Position numbers and translations under genes: made by a program. Of a DNA stretch of 64,000 bases, positions 111-62,832 are shown one piece after another. Every line of letters begins with the position of its first letter. Within the stretch, counting starts at the first letter, position 1. The stretch comes from Agromyces sp. S2-1-8 (GTDB lineage: Bacteria; Actinomycetota; Actinomycetes; Actinomycetales; Microbacteriaceae), in the NCBI RefSeq assembly GCF_021129215.1, contig NZ_JAJOLP010000001.1:3906001-3970000 (forward strand), read 5' to 3'. The notes below the pieces were generated by a model. That model was not told where the DNA came from. It saw only the letters and a list, made by a program, of their open reading frames with translations, and did not search any database.

Positions 111-169
111 CGCCCGACGATGCGCGTGCCCTCCGGCCGACCGTCGACGCACGACGTAGCGTGGAACCG

Positions 170-57380: not shown

Positions 57381-58931
57381 ATGAGCATCACGGAGACGGC
57401 CTCGTCACCCACCACGACCCCCGAATCGCGCGTGATCGGACACTGGATCGACGGCGCGCTGCGCACCTCGACCTCGGGCCGCACCGCACCGGTGTACAAC
57501 CCCGCCACCGGTGCCGTGCAGGCCGAGGTCGCCCTCGCCGACCAGGCCGAGATCGACGCGGCGATCGCGTCGGCCGTCGCCGGCTTCAAGGTCTGGTCGG
57601 AGTACTCGATCGCGAAGCGCCAGGCGGTGCTGTTCTCGTTCCGCGAGCTGCTCAACTCGCGCAAGGGCGAGCTGGCCGCCATCATCACCGCCGAGCACGG
57701 CAAGGTCCTCTCCGACGCCGCGGGCGAGATCGCCCGTGGGCAGGAGGTGGTCGAGCTCGCGACCGGCTTCCCGAACCTCATCAAGGGCGCGTTCAGCGAG
57801 AACGCCTCGACCGGCATCGACGTGTACTCGATCAAGCAGCCGCTCGGCGTGGTCGGCATCATCAGCCCCTTCAACTTCCCGGCCATGGTGCCGATGTGGT
57901 TCTTCCCCATCGCGATCGCCGCGGGCAACGCCGTCGTGCTGAAGCCCTCCGAGAAGGACCCGTCGGCTGCGCTCTGGCTCGCCGAGCTGTGGAAGGAGGC
58001 CGGCCTGCCCGACGGCGTGTTCACCGTGCTGCAGGGCGACAAGGAGGCCGTCGACGGCCTGCTCACCTCCCCCGACGTGCAGTCGATCTCGTTCGTCGGG
58101 TCGACGCCGATCGCGCAGTACATCTACGAGACGGCCTCGAAGCACGGCAAGCGCGTGCAGGCGCTCGGCGGGGCGAAGAACCACATGCTCGTGCTGCCCG
58201 ACGCCGACCTCGACCTCGCCGCCGACATGGCGATCAACGCGGGCTACGGCGCCGCGGGCGAGCGCTGCATGGCGATCTCGGTCGTGCTGGCCGTCGAGCC
58301 GGTCGCCGACGAGCTCATCGAGAAGATCACCGAGCGCATCGGCAAGCTGAAGATCGGCAACGGCGCGGGCGTCGACGGCGTCGAGCCCGACATGGGCCCG
58401 CTCATCACCGACGTGCACCGCGACAAGGTGTCGTCGTACGTCGACATCGCCGAGGCCGACGGTGCCGCGGTCGTCGTCGACGGCCGCGGATTCACCGTCG
58501 ACGGCCACGAGGACGGCTTCTTCTTCGGCCCCACCCTGCTCGACCGCGTGCCGACCACGTCGCGCGCCTACACCGAGGAGATCTTCGGCCCGGTCCTGTC
58601 GATCGTGCGCGTCGAGACCTTCCAGGAGGGCGTCGACCTCATCAACTCGGGCCAGTTCGGCAACGGCACCGCGATCTTCACCAACGACGGCGGTGCGGCC
58701 CGTCGCTTCCAGAACGAGATCGAGGTCGGCATGATCGGCATCAACGTGCCGATCCCCGTGCCCGTCGCCTACCACTCGTTCGGCGGCTGGAAGCAGTCGC
58801 TCTTCGGCGACTCGAAGGCGTACGGCGCGCACGGCTTCGACTTCTTCACCCGCGAGAAGGCCATCACGAGCCGCTGGCTCGACCCGGCCACCCACGGCGG
58901 CATCAACCTGGGCTTCCCCCAGAACCACTGA
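57381..58931 (+). CDS. mmsA: CoA-acylating methylmalonate-semialdehyde dehydrogenase
   Basis: A 516-residue aldehyde dehydrogenase of the MMSDH subgroup. The catalytic Cys296 is in AAGERCMAISV, and the general-base Glu of hydrolytic enzymes is replaced (LGGAKNHMLVLP), the hallmark of CoA-dependent acylation. It also has ISPFNFPAMVPMWFFPIAIA and FVGSTPIAQYIYE. It converts malonate or methylmalonate semialdehyde with CoA to acetyl- or propionyl-CoA. With the adjacent omega-aminotransferase it suggests beta-alanine or related amino-acid breakdown. It is divergent from PucR and begins the operon. Confidence 0.92.
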   Translation: MSITETASSPTTTPESRVIGHWIDGALRTSTSGRTAPVYNPATGAVQAEVALADQAEIDAAIASAVAGFKVWSEYSIAKRQAVLFSFRELLNSRKGELAAIITAEHGKVLSDAAGEIARGQEVVELATGFPNLIKGAFSENASTGIDVYSIKQPLGVVGIISPFNFPAMVPMWFFPIAIAAGNAVVLKPSEKDPSAALWLAELWKEAGLPDGVFTVLQGDKEAVDGLLTSPDVQSISFVGSTPIAQYIYETASKHGKRVQALGGAKNHMLVLPDADLDLAADMAINAGYGAAGERCMAISVVLAVEPVADELIEKITERIGKLKIGNGAGVDGVEPDMGPLITDVHRDKVSSYVDIAEADGAAVVVDGRGFTVDGHEDGFFFGPTLLDRVPTTSRAYTEEIFGPVLSIVRVETFQEGVDLINSGQFGNGTAIFTNDGGAARRFQNEIEVGMIGINVPIPVPVAYHSFGGWKQSLFGDSKAYGAHGFDFFTREKAITSRWLDPATHGGINLGFPQNH

Positions 58932-58963
58932 GTCCCGGCGAACGACTGAACGAGGCATCCGAA

Positions 58964-60373
58964 ATGACCGACACCCTCACCGACGGGCCCGCCTACACCG
59001 ACCGCCAGGGGTCCGTGCACCAGCTCCCCGACCCCGCCGCCGACGCGCAGGTGCGCGCCGACGACCGGGCCCACGTGTTCCACTCGTGGAGCGCGCAGGC
59101 CCTCATCGACCCGCTGCCCGTCGCGGGTGGCGCCGGCGCCACCTTCTGGGACTACCAGGGCGACGAGTACCTCGACTTCTCGTCGCAGCTCGTGAACCTG
59201 AACCTCGGCCACCAGCACCCCGACCTCGTGACGGCGATCCAGCAGCAGGCGGCCCGCCTCGCGACGATCCAGCCGTCGATGGCGTCCGACGTGCGCGGCG
59301 AACTCGCGCGCCGCATCGCCGAGGTCGCCCCCGGCGACCTCGACAAGGTGTTCTTCACGAACGGCGGCGCCGACGCGAACGAGTACGCGGTGCGTCTCGC
59401 ACGCGGCGTCACCGGTCGTCGCAAGGTGCTGTCGATGTACCGCAGCTACCACGGCGGCACCGCGACCGCGATCTCGCTCACGGGCGACCCGCGCCGCTGG
59501 GCGAACGAGCCGAGCGACGGCAGCGTCGCGCACTTCTTCGGCCCGTACGAGTACCGCTCGTCGTGGGGCGCGACGACCCCTGCCGAAGAGGCGCAGCGCG
59601 CGCTCGCGCACCTCGAGCAGGTCATCGTGCTCGAGGGCGCGTCGACGATCGCCGCGATCATCATGGAGACGATCGTCGGCACCAACGGCGTGCTCGTGCC
59701 GCCGCCCGGCTACCTCGAGGGCGTGCGCGCGCTGTGCGACAAGTACGGCATCGTGTACATCGCCGACGAGGTCATGGTCGGCTTCGGCCGCGTCGGCGAG
59801 TGGTTCGCCGTGAACCACTTCGGCGTCACTCCCGACCTCATCACCTTCGCGAAGGGCGTGAACTCGGGCTACGTGCCGCTCGGCGGCGTCGTGATCTCGC
59901 AGAAGATCGCCGCGCACTTCGACACGGTCGCGTTCCAGGGCGGGCTCACGTACTCGGGCCACCCGCTCGCGTGCGCCCCGGGCGTCGCGACGTTCGAGGT
60001 GTTCGAGCGCGACGGCATCCTCGAGCGCGTGCGCGACCTCGGCGAGCGCGTCGTCGGCCCGCGCCTGCGCGAGATCGCCGCGAAGCACCCGTCGGTCGGC
60101 GAGGTGCGCGGCCTGGGCCTCTTCTGGGCCATCGAGCTCGTGAAGGATGCCTCGACCCGCGAACCGCTCGTGCCGTTCAACGCCGCCGGCGCCGACGCGG
60201 CGCCCATGGGCGCCGTCGCAGCCGCGTGCAAGCAGGCCGGACTGTGGCCGTTCATCCACTTCAACCGCATGCACGTCGCACCGCCGCTCGTGATCAGCGA
60301 GGAGGAGCTGGTGCGCGGCCTCGACATCATCGACGAGGCGCTCACCGTCGCCGACGGCCACGTCACCGCGTGA
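58964..60373 (+). CDS. Class III omega-amino-acid:pyruvate-type aminotransferase
   Basis: A 469-residue PLP enzyme. The cofactor Lys297 is in LITFAKGVNSGYVPLGG, and the PLP-pyridine Asp in YIADEVMVGFGR. FTNGGADANEYAVRLAR and MYRSYHGGTATAISLTGDPR belong to the beta-alanine/taurine/GABA class of aminotransferases. It would transfer the amino group of beta-alanine or GABA to pyruvate or oxoglutarate, giving a semialdehyde for the enzyme encoded 32 bp upstream. ATG 58964 is used. A hairpin follows at 60420. Confidence 0.9.
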   Translation: MTDTLTDGPAYTDRQGSVHQLPDPAADAQVRADDRAHVFHSWSAQALIDPLPVAGGAGATFWDYQGDEYLDFSSQLVNLNLGHQHPDLVTAIQQQAARLATIQPSMASDVRGELARRIAEVAPGDLDKVFFTNGGADANEYAVRLARGVTGRRKVLSMYRSYHGGTATAISLTGDPRRWANEPSDGSVAHFFGPYEYRSSWGATTPAEEAQRALAHLEQVIVLEGASTIAAIIMETIVGTNGVLVPPPGYLEGVRALCDKYGIVYIADEVMVGFGRVGEWFAVNHFGVTPDLITFAKGVNSGYVPLGGVVISQKIAAHFDTVAFQGGLTYSGHPLACAPGVATFEVFERDGILERVRDLGERVVGPRLREIAAKHPSVGEVRGLGLFWAIELVKDASTREPLVPFNAAGADAAPMGAVAAACKQAGLWPFIHFNRMHVAPPLVISEEELVRGLDIIDEALTVADGHVTA

Positions 60374-60381
60374 CCGAACCC

Positions 60382-60416
60382 GGTCGGTCGAGGAGCGAAG
60401 CGCATCGAGACCACCG
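60382..60416. repeat. REP-like repeat
   Basis: GGTCGGTCGAGGAGCGAAGC then GCATCGAGACCACCG: the clearest single copy of the dispersed family also found at 3104, 13568, 21545 and 23346. It lies just after the aminotransferase stop. Confidence 0.65.
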
Positions 60417-60419
60417 CCC

Positions 60420-60455
60420 CGGATCGCCTGCATCTGCATGGATGCGGGCGATCCG
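60420..60455. terminator. Hairpin terminator after the aminotransferase operon
   Basis: CGGATCGCC (60420-60428) and GGCGATCCG (60447-60455) are perfect arms; the stem continues inward (one T-G pair, then GCATC with GATGC) to a loop TGCATG at 60435-60440, about 15 pairs in all. No T-run is present. Confidence 0.65.
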
Positions 60456-60611
60456 TCGTTCTGCGGAAAGTTGCAGGACCATTCGGCCGGCACCGCCCAC
60501 GAGCGGGGTGGTCGTCTCCTGATCCTGCAGCTTTTCGGCGAGCACGTCTCCGCACGCGTCCTCCTTCGTCGGGCGCTCCTCGATGAGCCGACACCCGGAT
60601 AGCCTGAGAGC

Positions 60612-62186
60612 ATGCGTGAGCGAGGCGGCGGGGGCGGCGTGAGCCGGCGCGGGTTCCTCGCCGCGGCGCTTTCCGGCACCGCCGCCGTCGTGCTCGCGAG
60701 CTGCACCGGGCCCGAGCCGAAGCCCTCCCCCACTCCCACTCCCACTCCGACGCCGACGACGCCCGCCCCGACCGCGACGCCCGGCGGCGTGCCGCTGCCG
60801 ACGGCGATGCGCCGCTCGCGCTGGGCGGCCGACCCGTTCGCCCGCGGAGCATTCGGCTTCCGCGCCGTCGACACCACGCCCGGACTGCGCGAGGCGCTCG
60901 CCGAACCCGTCGGCGACCGGCTCTGGTTCGCCGGTGAGGCCTGTTCGCCCGATGCCCCCGGCACCCTGCACGGCGCACTGCGCTCGGGCGTGGATGCGGC
61001 AGCCTCCCTCATGGCCGTGTCCGAGCCCGGCGAACGCGTCGCCGTGATCGGCGCCGGCCTCGCCGGTCTCGCCGCCGCCCGCGAACTCGATCGCGGCGGT
61101 TTCGAGGTCATCGTGGTCGAGGCGCGCACGCGGATCGGCGGACGCATCGAGACCGTCGGCGACGACGCCTTCGGGCGGCCGGTCGAGCTCGGCCCGCTCT
61201 TCGTCGGCGACGACGCCGCGCTCGCGCGGCTCCTCGACGAGGCATCCGTCACGACCGTGCCGTTCACCGCACGCACCGAGACCCGCTCGCTCGACGGGCG
61301 CACCGTCGCGGTGCCCGCGACCGGCCCCGACGCGGTGGCCGCCGCGCACGCGTGGGCGGCTGAGCAGCCCGACGACGTCTCGCTCGCCGCCGCGCTCATG
61401 GGCGCCGGCGAACTCCCGCCGAAGGACGGCGACACCGACGGCGTCGACGCCGGCGAGTGGCTCAGCCACACGGTGCGCACCGGCGTCGAACCCTTCACCG
61501 GGGCCGGCTCGACGGTGGTCTCCGCGAACACCGATTTCGCCGCGCTCGCCGCGACCCCGCGCAGGCTCATCACCGGGCGGCTCTCCGACGTCGCCGACCT
61601 GCTCGCCGAGGGCCTCGACATCGCCGTCGGCAGCGCGGTCACCCGCCTCGCCGCGACCGATCGCCGCGTCTCGCTGCGGCTCGACTCGGGCGAGTCGGTG
61701 TCGGCCGACCGGGCCGTCGTCGCCGTGCCGCTCGGCGTGCTGCAGTCCGACGCGTTCGAGTTCGACCCGCCGCTGCCCGCGGGGCACCGCCGCGCGCTCG
61801 ACGAGCTCCGCACGGGCGCGGTCGACCTCGTCTGGCTGCGCTTCGACGAGGCGTTCTGGCGACCCGAGCAGCCCGGATCGGGCGAGACGACGGGCGACGC
61901 CTCCGCCTCGGCGCCCGACCTCTACACCGTCGTCGGCGTCGGCACCCAGGTCTCCGCCTGGATCGACCTCGGTGCCGCGAACGGCTATCCGAAGCCCGAC
62001 CCTGCCGAGGTCGACGGCGGCGAGGCGACCGGCCCCTTCGGCGGCGGCCCGCCCGTGCTCGTCGGCATCATCGCTGCCGCGCAGGCTCGCCTGCTCGACG
62101 ACCTCGACGACCAGGCGTTCCAGTCCGCGGTGCTCGACGACCTCGCTCCCTTCGCGACCGCCCCGCCCGCTGCAGCCACCGGTTGA
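60612..62186 (+). CDS. Tat-exported lipoprotein flavin amine oxidase, circularly permuted
   Basis: A 524-residue exported flavoprotein. Residues 11-31 hold a twin-arginine signal (SRRGFLAAAL) and lipobox LASC (Cys31); a Pro/Thr linker follows to about 60. Residues 70-126 then show RWAADPFARGAFGF and WFAGEACSPDAPGTLHGAL, which in normal amine oxidases lie at the C-terminus. The FAD Rossmann motif VIGAGLAGLAAARELD (145-160) and EARTRIGGRIE (170-180), normally N-terminal, come after. The protein ends in AVLDDLAPFA, where canonical enzymes would continue into RWAxDPF. All blocks for FAD binding are present but in circularly permuted order. Likely an extracytoplasmic monoamine or polyamine oxidase; substrate unknown. 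It overlaps the convergent Pr6Pr gene. Confidence 0.85.
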   Translation: MRERGGGGGVSRRGFLAAALSGTAAVVLASCTGPEPKPSPTPTPTPTPTTPAPTATPGGVPLPTAMRRSRWAADPFARGAFGFRAVDTTPGLREALAEPVGDRLWFAGEACSPDAPGTLHGALRSGVDAAASLMAVSEPGERVAVIGAGLAGLAAARELDRGGFEVIVVEARTRIGGRIETVGDDAFGRPVELGPLFVGDDAALARLLDEASVTTVPFTARTETRSLDGRTVAVPATGPDAVAAAHAWAAEQPDDVSLAAALMGAGELPPKDGDTDGVDAGEWLSHTVRTGVEPFTGAGSTVVSANTDFAALAATPRRLITGRLSDVADLLAEGLDIAVGSAVTRLAATDRRVSLRLDSGESVSADRAVVAVPLGVLQSDAFEFDPPLPAGHRRALDELRTGAVDLVWLRFDEAFWRPEQPGSGETTGDASASAPDLYTVVGVGTQVSAWIDLGAANGYPKPDPAEVDGGEATGPFGGGPPVLVGIIAAAQARLLDDLDDQAFQSAVLDDLAPFATAPPAAATG

Positions 62187-62832
62187 CCGCGACGAGCCCC
62201 GCCGTGAGCGTCACGAAGATCACGAGCACGAGGGCGCAGTAGAGCGCGACCCCGACCGGTCCGCCGACCTGCGCCTCGTCGAGGAAGAAGTACGGGTACC
62301 AGCCGACGTCGGCGCCGCGGGCGAGCGTGTAGACGAGCCACGCCGACGGATACACCAGCACCCACCCCACCGTCGACCACGGCACGGGCGGGTTGACCGC
62401 GATGATGCTGTCGGCCGTCCATGCGATCACGGCGAGGGCGGGCACGACGAAGTGCAGCAGCGTGTCGGACCAGGGCACGTCGACCCGGTAGTCGTGCGTC
62501 GACGCCTGCGTCACGATGAGCGCGAACACGATGCCCGAGACGAGCACGTACACCGTCACCATCGTGCGGACGATGCCGAGCCACGGCGGGTCGCGCGGCG
62601 CGAGCAGGGCGAACGCCCCGGCCACGCCGAGCGTCGCGACCGCCGCGAACGCCGACTGCACGGTGAAGTAGCTGAAGAAGTTCGCCGTCGCGAAGAAGCG
62701 GAAGCCCAGCACGTACTGGAAGTTGCCGATGAGCGCGATCACCTCGAGCGCCGCGATGAGCAGCCGGAAGACGCCGAGCGCGCGACGCGCGCGCACCACC
62801 CCCGGTCCGTTCGGGGCGGGCGAGCCGGGCAT
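62068..62832 (-). CDS. Pr6Pr family membrane protein, run-on C-terminus
   Basis: A 254-residue six-helix membrane protein, paralogous to the one at 15164-15871: FFSYFTVQSAFAAVATLG, VDVPWSDTLLHFVVPALAV, ADVGWYPYFFLDEAQVG. Function unknown. Family similarity ends near VAVNRWLQRAG; the last 40 residues are an Arg-rich tail (RSRRERGRRAPRTG and beyond) read from DNA antisense to the amine oxidase end, an overlap of 119 bp. This tail looks like loss of the original stop codon rather than a real domain. Confidence 0.8.
   Translation of the reverse strand: MPGSPAPNGPGVVRARRALGVFRLLIAALEVIALIGNFQYVLGFRFFATANFFSYFTVQSAFAAVATLGVAGAFALLAPRDPPWLGIVRTMVTVYVLVSGIVFALIVTQASTHDYRVDVPWSDTLLHFVVPALAVIAWTADSIIAVNPPVPWSTVGWVLVYPSAWLVYTLARGADVGWYPYFFLDEAQVGGPVGVALYCALVLVIFVTLTAGLVAVNRWLQRAGRSRRERGRRAPRTGTPGRRGRRAGEPARQR

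Follow-up and report, generated by a model that had tools for sequence, protein, structure and literature searches.

Introduction

Flavin amine oxidases such as MAO, LSD1 and PAO are among the best-studied flavoenzymes. The described proteins closest to the one analysed here are LSD2 and LSD1 (KDM1B and KDM1A), whose oxidase domain gives its best PDB matches in sequence and fold, and the polyamine oxidases (maize PAO 1b37, spermine oxidase and Fms1), which also match in both respects. LSD proteins have extra SWIRM, zinc and tower parts. The domain order of two further relatives, NicA2 and Pnao, is presumably canonical. According to PMC12224317, these two enzymes carry twin-arginine signals, have a cytochrome c gene adjacent to their own, use cytochrome c as acceptor and offer a precedent for poor use of O2, while keeping the flavin-N5 lysine (Lys340 in NicA2). 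The same paper describes this lysine as shared by almost all members of the superfamily, even the dehydrogenases, and as enhancing the reaction with O2, and Tat-exported members without a cytochrome neighbour as oxidases with one exception. In MAO A, according to PMC8009472, the substitutions K305S and K305M lower kcat by about 100 and 200 fold, and K305Q is as active as the wild type.

An earlier note on a 64,000-nucleotide stretch of the Agromyces sp. S2-1-8 genome (the window) had proposed that one of its genes encodes a circularly permuted flavin amine oxidase exported by the Tat pathway. We read the product of this gene (Table 1) as an exported, circularly permuted flavin amine oxidoreductase nearest to LSD and PAO, and we give this reading a probability of about 0.8; its Agromyces form may be a tethered dehydrogenase or may have changed its substrate.

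Table 1. Window coordinates of the permuted oxidase gene, its parts and neighbouring genes
Feature	Coordinates	Strand	Basis and remarks
Circularly permuted flavin amine oxidoreductase gene	60612..62186	+	524 aa, ATG start, no internal stops
Putative signal region, residues 1-31	60612..60704	+	Twin arginine R12-R13; lipobox L-A-S-C (28-31), ending at C31
Pro/Thr-rich linker, residues 32-58	60705..60785	+	Sequence; alignment A1
Canonical C-terminal block, residues 60-135	60789..61016	+	LSD2 chain 700-774; PF01593 371-442
Short new connector, residues 136-141 (old C-terminal helix to first Rossmann strand)	61017..61034	+	AlphaFold model
Residues 142-514, Rossmann FAD motif to last helix	61035..62153	+	PF01593 best stretch 150-514 on 1-364
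Leu406 codon at the conserved flavin-N5 lysine position	61827..61829	+	Column table; LSD2 alignment
Pr6Pr family membrane protein gene	62068..62832	-	NF038065, E 9e-30; tail-to-tail with the oxidase gene
Class III aminotransferase gene	58964..60373	+	Upstream neighbour, kept in 8 of 9 Agromyces regions
CoA-acylating methylmalonate-semialdehyde dehydrogenase gene	57381..58931	+	Upstream neighbour, kept in 8 of 9 Agromyces regions

Natural circular permutation of an amine-oxidase domain

In the oxidase, RWAADPFARGAFGF begins at residue 70 and WFAGEACSPDAPGTLHGAL covers residues 105-123, and the Rossmann motif GAGLAG (residues 147-152) lies C-terminal to the moved block. This block of about 76 aa, which carries RWAADPFARGAFGF and WFAGEACSPDAPGTLHGALRSG in the pattern RWxxDPF ... 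FAGEAxxxxxGTxxGAxxSG, is followed by a Rossmann part running from GAGLAG to EARTRIGGR, and the C-terminal end comes just past AVLDDLAPFA. Residues 142-514 are the canonical N-terminal and middle part, C-terminal in the window protein; the canonical PF01593 order, with the Rossmann part N-terminal and FAGEA C-terminal, is reversed, and the FAD motifs GxGxxG, ExR...RxGGR and FAGEA...T..GA are all present. A phmmer search against PDB sequences placed three stretches on LSD2 (4gu0_A) in permuted order, query residues 60-134 on 700-774, 132-180 on 328-376 and 307-423 on 516-632. The native protein matched Pfam PF01593 in two stretches (170.1 bits, cut-off 19.8), the best of which aligned residues 150-514 with profile positions 1-364 of 443, and the 80-aa C-block alone fell on positions 371-442 (50.2 bits, E 3.3e-13), that is, on the canonical C-terminus. 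When the protein was re-ordered in silico, one stretch (12-451) covered positions 1-442 of 443 with 186.4 bits. Taken together, the LSD2 stretches and the PF01593 matches of the native, block and re-ordered sequences indicate that every domain part is present once and that the order is cyclically changed. The oxidase is a natural circular permutation of the PF01593 amine-oxidase domain.

LSD2 and LSD1 share with the window protein the FAD motifs and the strand into the FxxxFW region but carry the N- and C-terminal parts in the opposite order, and their matches are confined to the oxidase domain. The polyamine oxidases likewise have the canonical order, and the two halves of the junction match them separately. 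An AlphaFold model of window residues 56-524, built with 65 diverse permuted rows (alignment A4, without L065 and L114), formed one domain with a mean pLDDT of 92.5 and a pTM of 0.91; with 20 Agromyces rows instead the model was poor (pLDDT 58.3), and its Foldseek matches were set aside. In the A4-based model (m313bf0fda053) the moved N-terminal block, read in steps of ten residues, had a pLDDT of 88-98, confidence was low for two loops close to the C-terminal third, and a helix at model residues 64-81 (window 119-136) and a strand at 87-91 (window 142-146) flanked the connector. The best PDB match in Foldseek was LSD2 (E 8.9e-23, TMq 0.64, 400 columns), and further matches were LSD1, then putrescine and polyamine oxidases (maize PAO 1b37, TMq 0.61, TMt 0.62), TM scores that we take as floors, since Foldseek follows the order of the chain and so cannot align the moved block along with the remainder of the domain. 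The window protein is thus predicted to keep the amine-oxidase fold as a single ordinary domain, and we infer the geometry of its FAD site from the motifs. The cut lies in the loop that leads from the final helix of the middle part to the RWxxDPF strand. The former C-terminal FAD block now comes first, a connector of a few residues runs from it to the first Rossmann strand, and the FAD-contact motifs are all retained.

The permuted order is conserved and occurs in at least three phyla

A contiguous permuted ortholog was present in 56 of 60 genomes of the genus, the window's own included. The exceptions were G020, with fragments only, and G011, G016 and G050, with none; G011, G020 and G050 are fragmented assemblies of 460-840 contigs. 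With a 137-aa junction-spanning query, the contiguous junction was found in at least 135 of 398 Microbacteriaceae genomes and 31 of 85 genera, a lower bound with at most 10 candidates scored per genome and three partial alignments (G031, G071, G416). The spacing from W to GAG was 76 aa in 45 of 61 distinct permuted proteins and 73-81 aa in all 61, a pattern-collected set that does not include the permuted L074, L075, L135, L138 and L159 and from which L056, a false match of the order pattern, was excluded. Across eight Agromyces ortholog pairs, dN/dS (NG86) was 0.16-0.27, indicating purifying selection. The permuted arrangement goes beyond chance. That the gene is an assembly or frameshift artefact fusing two gene fragments is ruled out, to near certainty, by the single open frame, the identical order in 56 of the 60 genus genomes and in 31 genera of the family, and the conserved junction length. 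The ortholog check and the two other checks that the earlier note had proposed, alignment to PF01593 and structure prediction (here with a sequential aligner), all agree with the permutation it had claimed, which is borne out by the order on LSD2, the full PF01593 match after re-ordering, the constant junction and the single-domain model.

The other 49 loci of the contig scan comprised 46 of canonical order and three that could not be judged (L051, L052, L057). A canonical-order relative without evident signal is also encoded in the same genome as the permuted oxidase (G000:C1:935775-937088, L002/L004) and is 41% identical in the C-block.

Wider searches by junction profiles, with strict cut-offs and limited candidates scored, gave counts that are lower bounds: permuted proteins were found in four genomes among 396 for the order outside the Microbacteriaceae (G493, G560, G561, G635), in six among 396 for other Actinomycetota classes (G906, G957, G976, G1002, G1131, G1155) and in four of 149 at class level (G957, G1155, G1296, G1301). 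Under the same limits, the phylum of a Rhizobiaceae genome (Pseudomonadota) yielded 3 of 180 genomes, two orders of that phylum 3 of 95 and 5 of 101, the search centre included in each, and the phylum of a Myxococcales genome (Myxococcota) 1 of 34. None of 181 genomes was permuted in a Chloroflexi-centred search, where two matched with the C-block alone, and none of the nine records of a plasmid search reached 80% query coverage. The block order was verified within the open frames of the wider-search loci. Permuted amine oxidoreductases are therefore not one protein but a multi-phylum family, occurring in Actinomycetota, Pseudomonadota and Myxococcota. The open frame of one permuted gene (L110/L113 in G1155) spans just 290 aa, and this gene is possibly broken or frameshifted.

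Among PDB sequences, the best 60 of the 283 matching junction profile A3 cover one junction half only, and no description of a permuted amine oxidase was found in the open-access PMC literature, Agromyces amine oxidases included, although such an absence is no proof. Within the scope of these searches, the earlier statement that no permuted member is described remains consistent with what we found, and the permuted oxidase is a real, widespread and apparently undescribed variant of a known superfamily. The family is easily missed, since an order-blind profile search labels its members as ordinary PF01593. As a natural and long-lived permutation, it indicates that new chain ends next to the FAD site are compatible with the amine-oxidase fold, a point of relevance to the assembly of such folds around FAD and to the placement of tags and fusions.

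Predicted export, the flavin-N5 lysine and proposed function

A twin arginine with a lipobox was found in all 43 Microbacteriaceae members and in 49 of the 61 permuted proteins, in agreement with the Tat lipoprotein type of N-terminus noted earlier. Two N-terminal styles occur among permuted proteins, the twin-arginine style, usually with lipobox, and one with no evident signal (L125-L130, L134). Several canonical relatives, e.g. L010, L017, L030 and L111, which belong to the same family, have a similar twin-arginine and lipobox N-terminus, but the Rossmann block follows their signal and the C-block is C-terminal, opposite to the window protein. Since such relatives already carry this N-terminus, a late fusion is not required; of the earlier proposal that a signal was fused to the new N-terminus, the signal itself stands, and export may have preceded the permutation. 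The N-terminus suggests Tat export of the window protein followed by lipid anchoring, and the Pro/Thr tether would then hold the enzyme on the outer face of the cytoplasmic membrane. We infer its FAD binding, catalysis and acceptor, as well as its export.

The flavin-N5 lysine position, named from the literature and the alignment with LSD2, was read in a column table of the 70 rows of the 70-row tree described below. The lysine was present in 31/31 canonical rows and in 19/19 permuted rows from outside the Microbacteriaceae, and in 3/20 Microbacteriaceae rows. When one further locus was taken per Microbacteriaceae genus (23 loci, 20 readable; L164, L172 and L181 were not recovered by pattern), 8 of 20 kept it, and both sets joined gave 9 of 27 typed genera with the lysine and 18 with a replacement. 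The window protein has Leu406 where LSD2 has its lysine, and thus differs at this position from maize PAO (Lys300, 3kpf entry title) as well as from NicA2. Its GASWIHG loop is altered to GPLFVGDD; the loop is kept in L161 and nearly so in L167 and L173 (GPSWIHG). FAD motifs were largely retained in all 70 compared rows. The earlier view that nothing had been lost therefore holds for the domain parts and FAD motifs but fails for the active site. L161, L167 and L173, which have an ancestral look with lysine and WIHG loop kept, come from small, partly incomplete Microbacteriaceae genomes (about 1.2-1.7 Mb). Loss of the lysine with FAD motifs kept offers a natural series for testing the role of this residue in O2 reactivity.

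The replacement of the flavin-N5 lysine by Leu406 makes a classical O2-using oxidase activity of the window protein doubtful, as judged from sequence. Given the lysine loss and the role assigned to this residue in PMC12224317 and PMC8009472, we tentatively take the window protein not for a classical oxidase but for a flavin dehydrogenase tethered to the membrane, or for a protein with altered chemistry, at odds somewhat short of even. Under this proposal, the proteins of Agromyces and most typed Microbacteriaceae genera would be flavin dehydrogenases, or enzymes whose substrate has changed, that react poorly with O2 and pass electrons to another acceptor. Neither a redox partner nor an adjacent cytochrome c gene was recognised among the five identified flanking genes of the window, the other regions having been searched for the window's neighbours only. 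The same replacement in the window protein and 18 typed genera, with FAD motifs kept, together with the loss of the WIHG loop in the window protein, would also suit non-catalytic flavoproteins with a structural, sensing or electron-storing role, in which FAD binding was kept and amine chemistry lost; purifying selection on the whole gene and the nine genera with lysine, where activity is probably retained in parts of the family, make this unlikely. A classical exported amine oxidase that produces extracellular H2O2 even with the lysine replaced appears improbable: it would agree with the predicted fold and the retained FAD motifs, with the Tat-exported oxidases that have no cytochrome neighbour (with the one exception in PMC12224317) and with the active K305Q form of MAO A, whereas the O2-activating lysine is a leucine here and K305M and K305S were severely impaired according to PMC8009472. 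For the compared permuted members from outside the Microbacteriaceae and for some Microbacteriaceae genera, by contrast, the retained lysine, often together with a GASWIHG-type loop, suggests that they probably oxidise amines.

Origin of the permutation

Trees of re-ordered cores with 74, 70 and 62 rows needed 5, 4 and 3 order changes, respectively. The 74-row tree held 40 permuted and 34 canonical proteins; L118, L119, L120 and L135 (far or long) were dropped from the 70-row tree and AU set, and the 62-row tree and AU set additionally went without L115, L117, L060, L063, L078, L128, L131, L133 and L137, with L159 added. Permuted proteins formed strong clades in the Microbacteriaceae together with L103/L104/L107, in the group that lacks a signal, and in the Pseudomonadota with L124, L136, L137 and L139. 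Between the GGR motif and the PLGVL strand, a loss of some 45 residues was found in L109, L124, L136, L137, L138, L139 and L159, i.e. only in permuted proteins, from three phyla, and in 0/26 measured canonical rows, with 11 of 72 rows not measurable (6 permuted, 5 canonical).

These data bear on whether several independent permutations occurred at one loop or one ancient event was spread by descent and transfer. Several origins, which we regard as possible at odds clearly below even, would account for the number of order changes in the best trees, for the 0% of 200 bootstrap trees with a single permuted clade (70-row and 62-row trees) and for the Myxococcota protein L159, whose closest relative in identity (51%) is a canonical Chloroflexota protein. 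However, the AU test did not reject one permuted clade (p 0.237 for the 70-row set and 0.211 for the 62-row set), and the supported (starred) branches demand just one order change. The nearly constant W-to-GAG spacing of the connector and the shortening common to seven permuted proteins also argue against several origins and would favour shared descent. The earlier note had named tandem duplication followed by trimming as the route; this was not demonstrated, as no second C-block was found in the flanks of 61 permuted loci, which reach a median of just 1308 nt upstream of the open frame and 659 nt downstream of it.

Gene neighbourhood

A Pr6Pr gene lay downstream and tail-to-tail in each of the 15 regions read from Microbacteriaceae; in one of them it is 0.65 kb distant. 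None was found in four regions with permuted genes outside the Microbacteriaceae or at the 49 other contig-scan loci, part of which have short flanks. Pr6Pr was also not matched in the short-flank loci L080, L084, L085 and L087; the longer region L149, with the gene of L080, does have it. An alignment of 13 Pr6Pr rows showed N-[FY]-F-[SG]-Y-[FL]-T, LHF and WYPYFFLD to be conserved. The AIG1/ADTRP membrane hydrolases, distantly similar to Pr6Pr, use a Thr and a His. In the window, the oxidase gene and the convergent Pr6Pr gene have 119 bp in common at their 3' ends (62068-62186), and by tblastn ranges an overlap recurs in 8/9 Agromyces regions (not L148) and in 0/6 regions of other Microbacteriaceae.

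Upstream, the trio of aminotransferase, semialdehyde dehydrogenase and PucR is kept in 8/9 Agromyces regions and was found in none of the six other Microbacteriaceae regions, L150 having only a distant aldehyde dehydrogenase match (30%). An amine-catabolic operon was therefore rejected, as the trio is absent from all six of these regions, whereas Pr6Pr is present in 15/15. Synteny by itself is no proof that oxidase and Pr6Pr have a function in common. Speculatively, one ancient permutation may have founded a separate, mostly exported lineage in at least three phyla, whose Microbacteriaceae member became a lipid-tethered dehydrogenase that repeatedly lost the lysine, with Pr6Pr as partner or acceptor; as a whole, we hold this scenario to be rather unlikely.

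In one region (L152 in G084), a single permuted oxidase gene lies between two Pr6Pr genes, one on each side. In the window, an antisense open frame of 1014 aa (58769-61813, minus strand) runs opposite the oxidase and aminotransferase genes and is most likely a high-GC effect.
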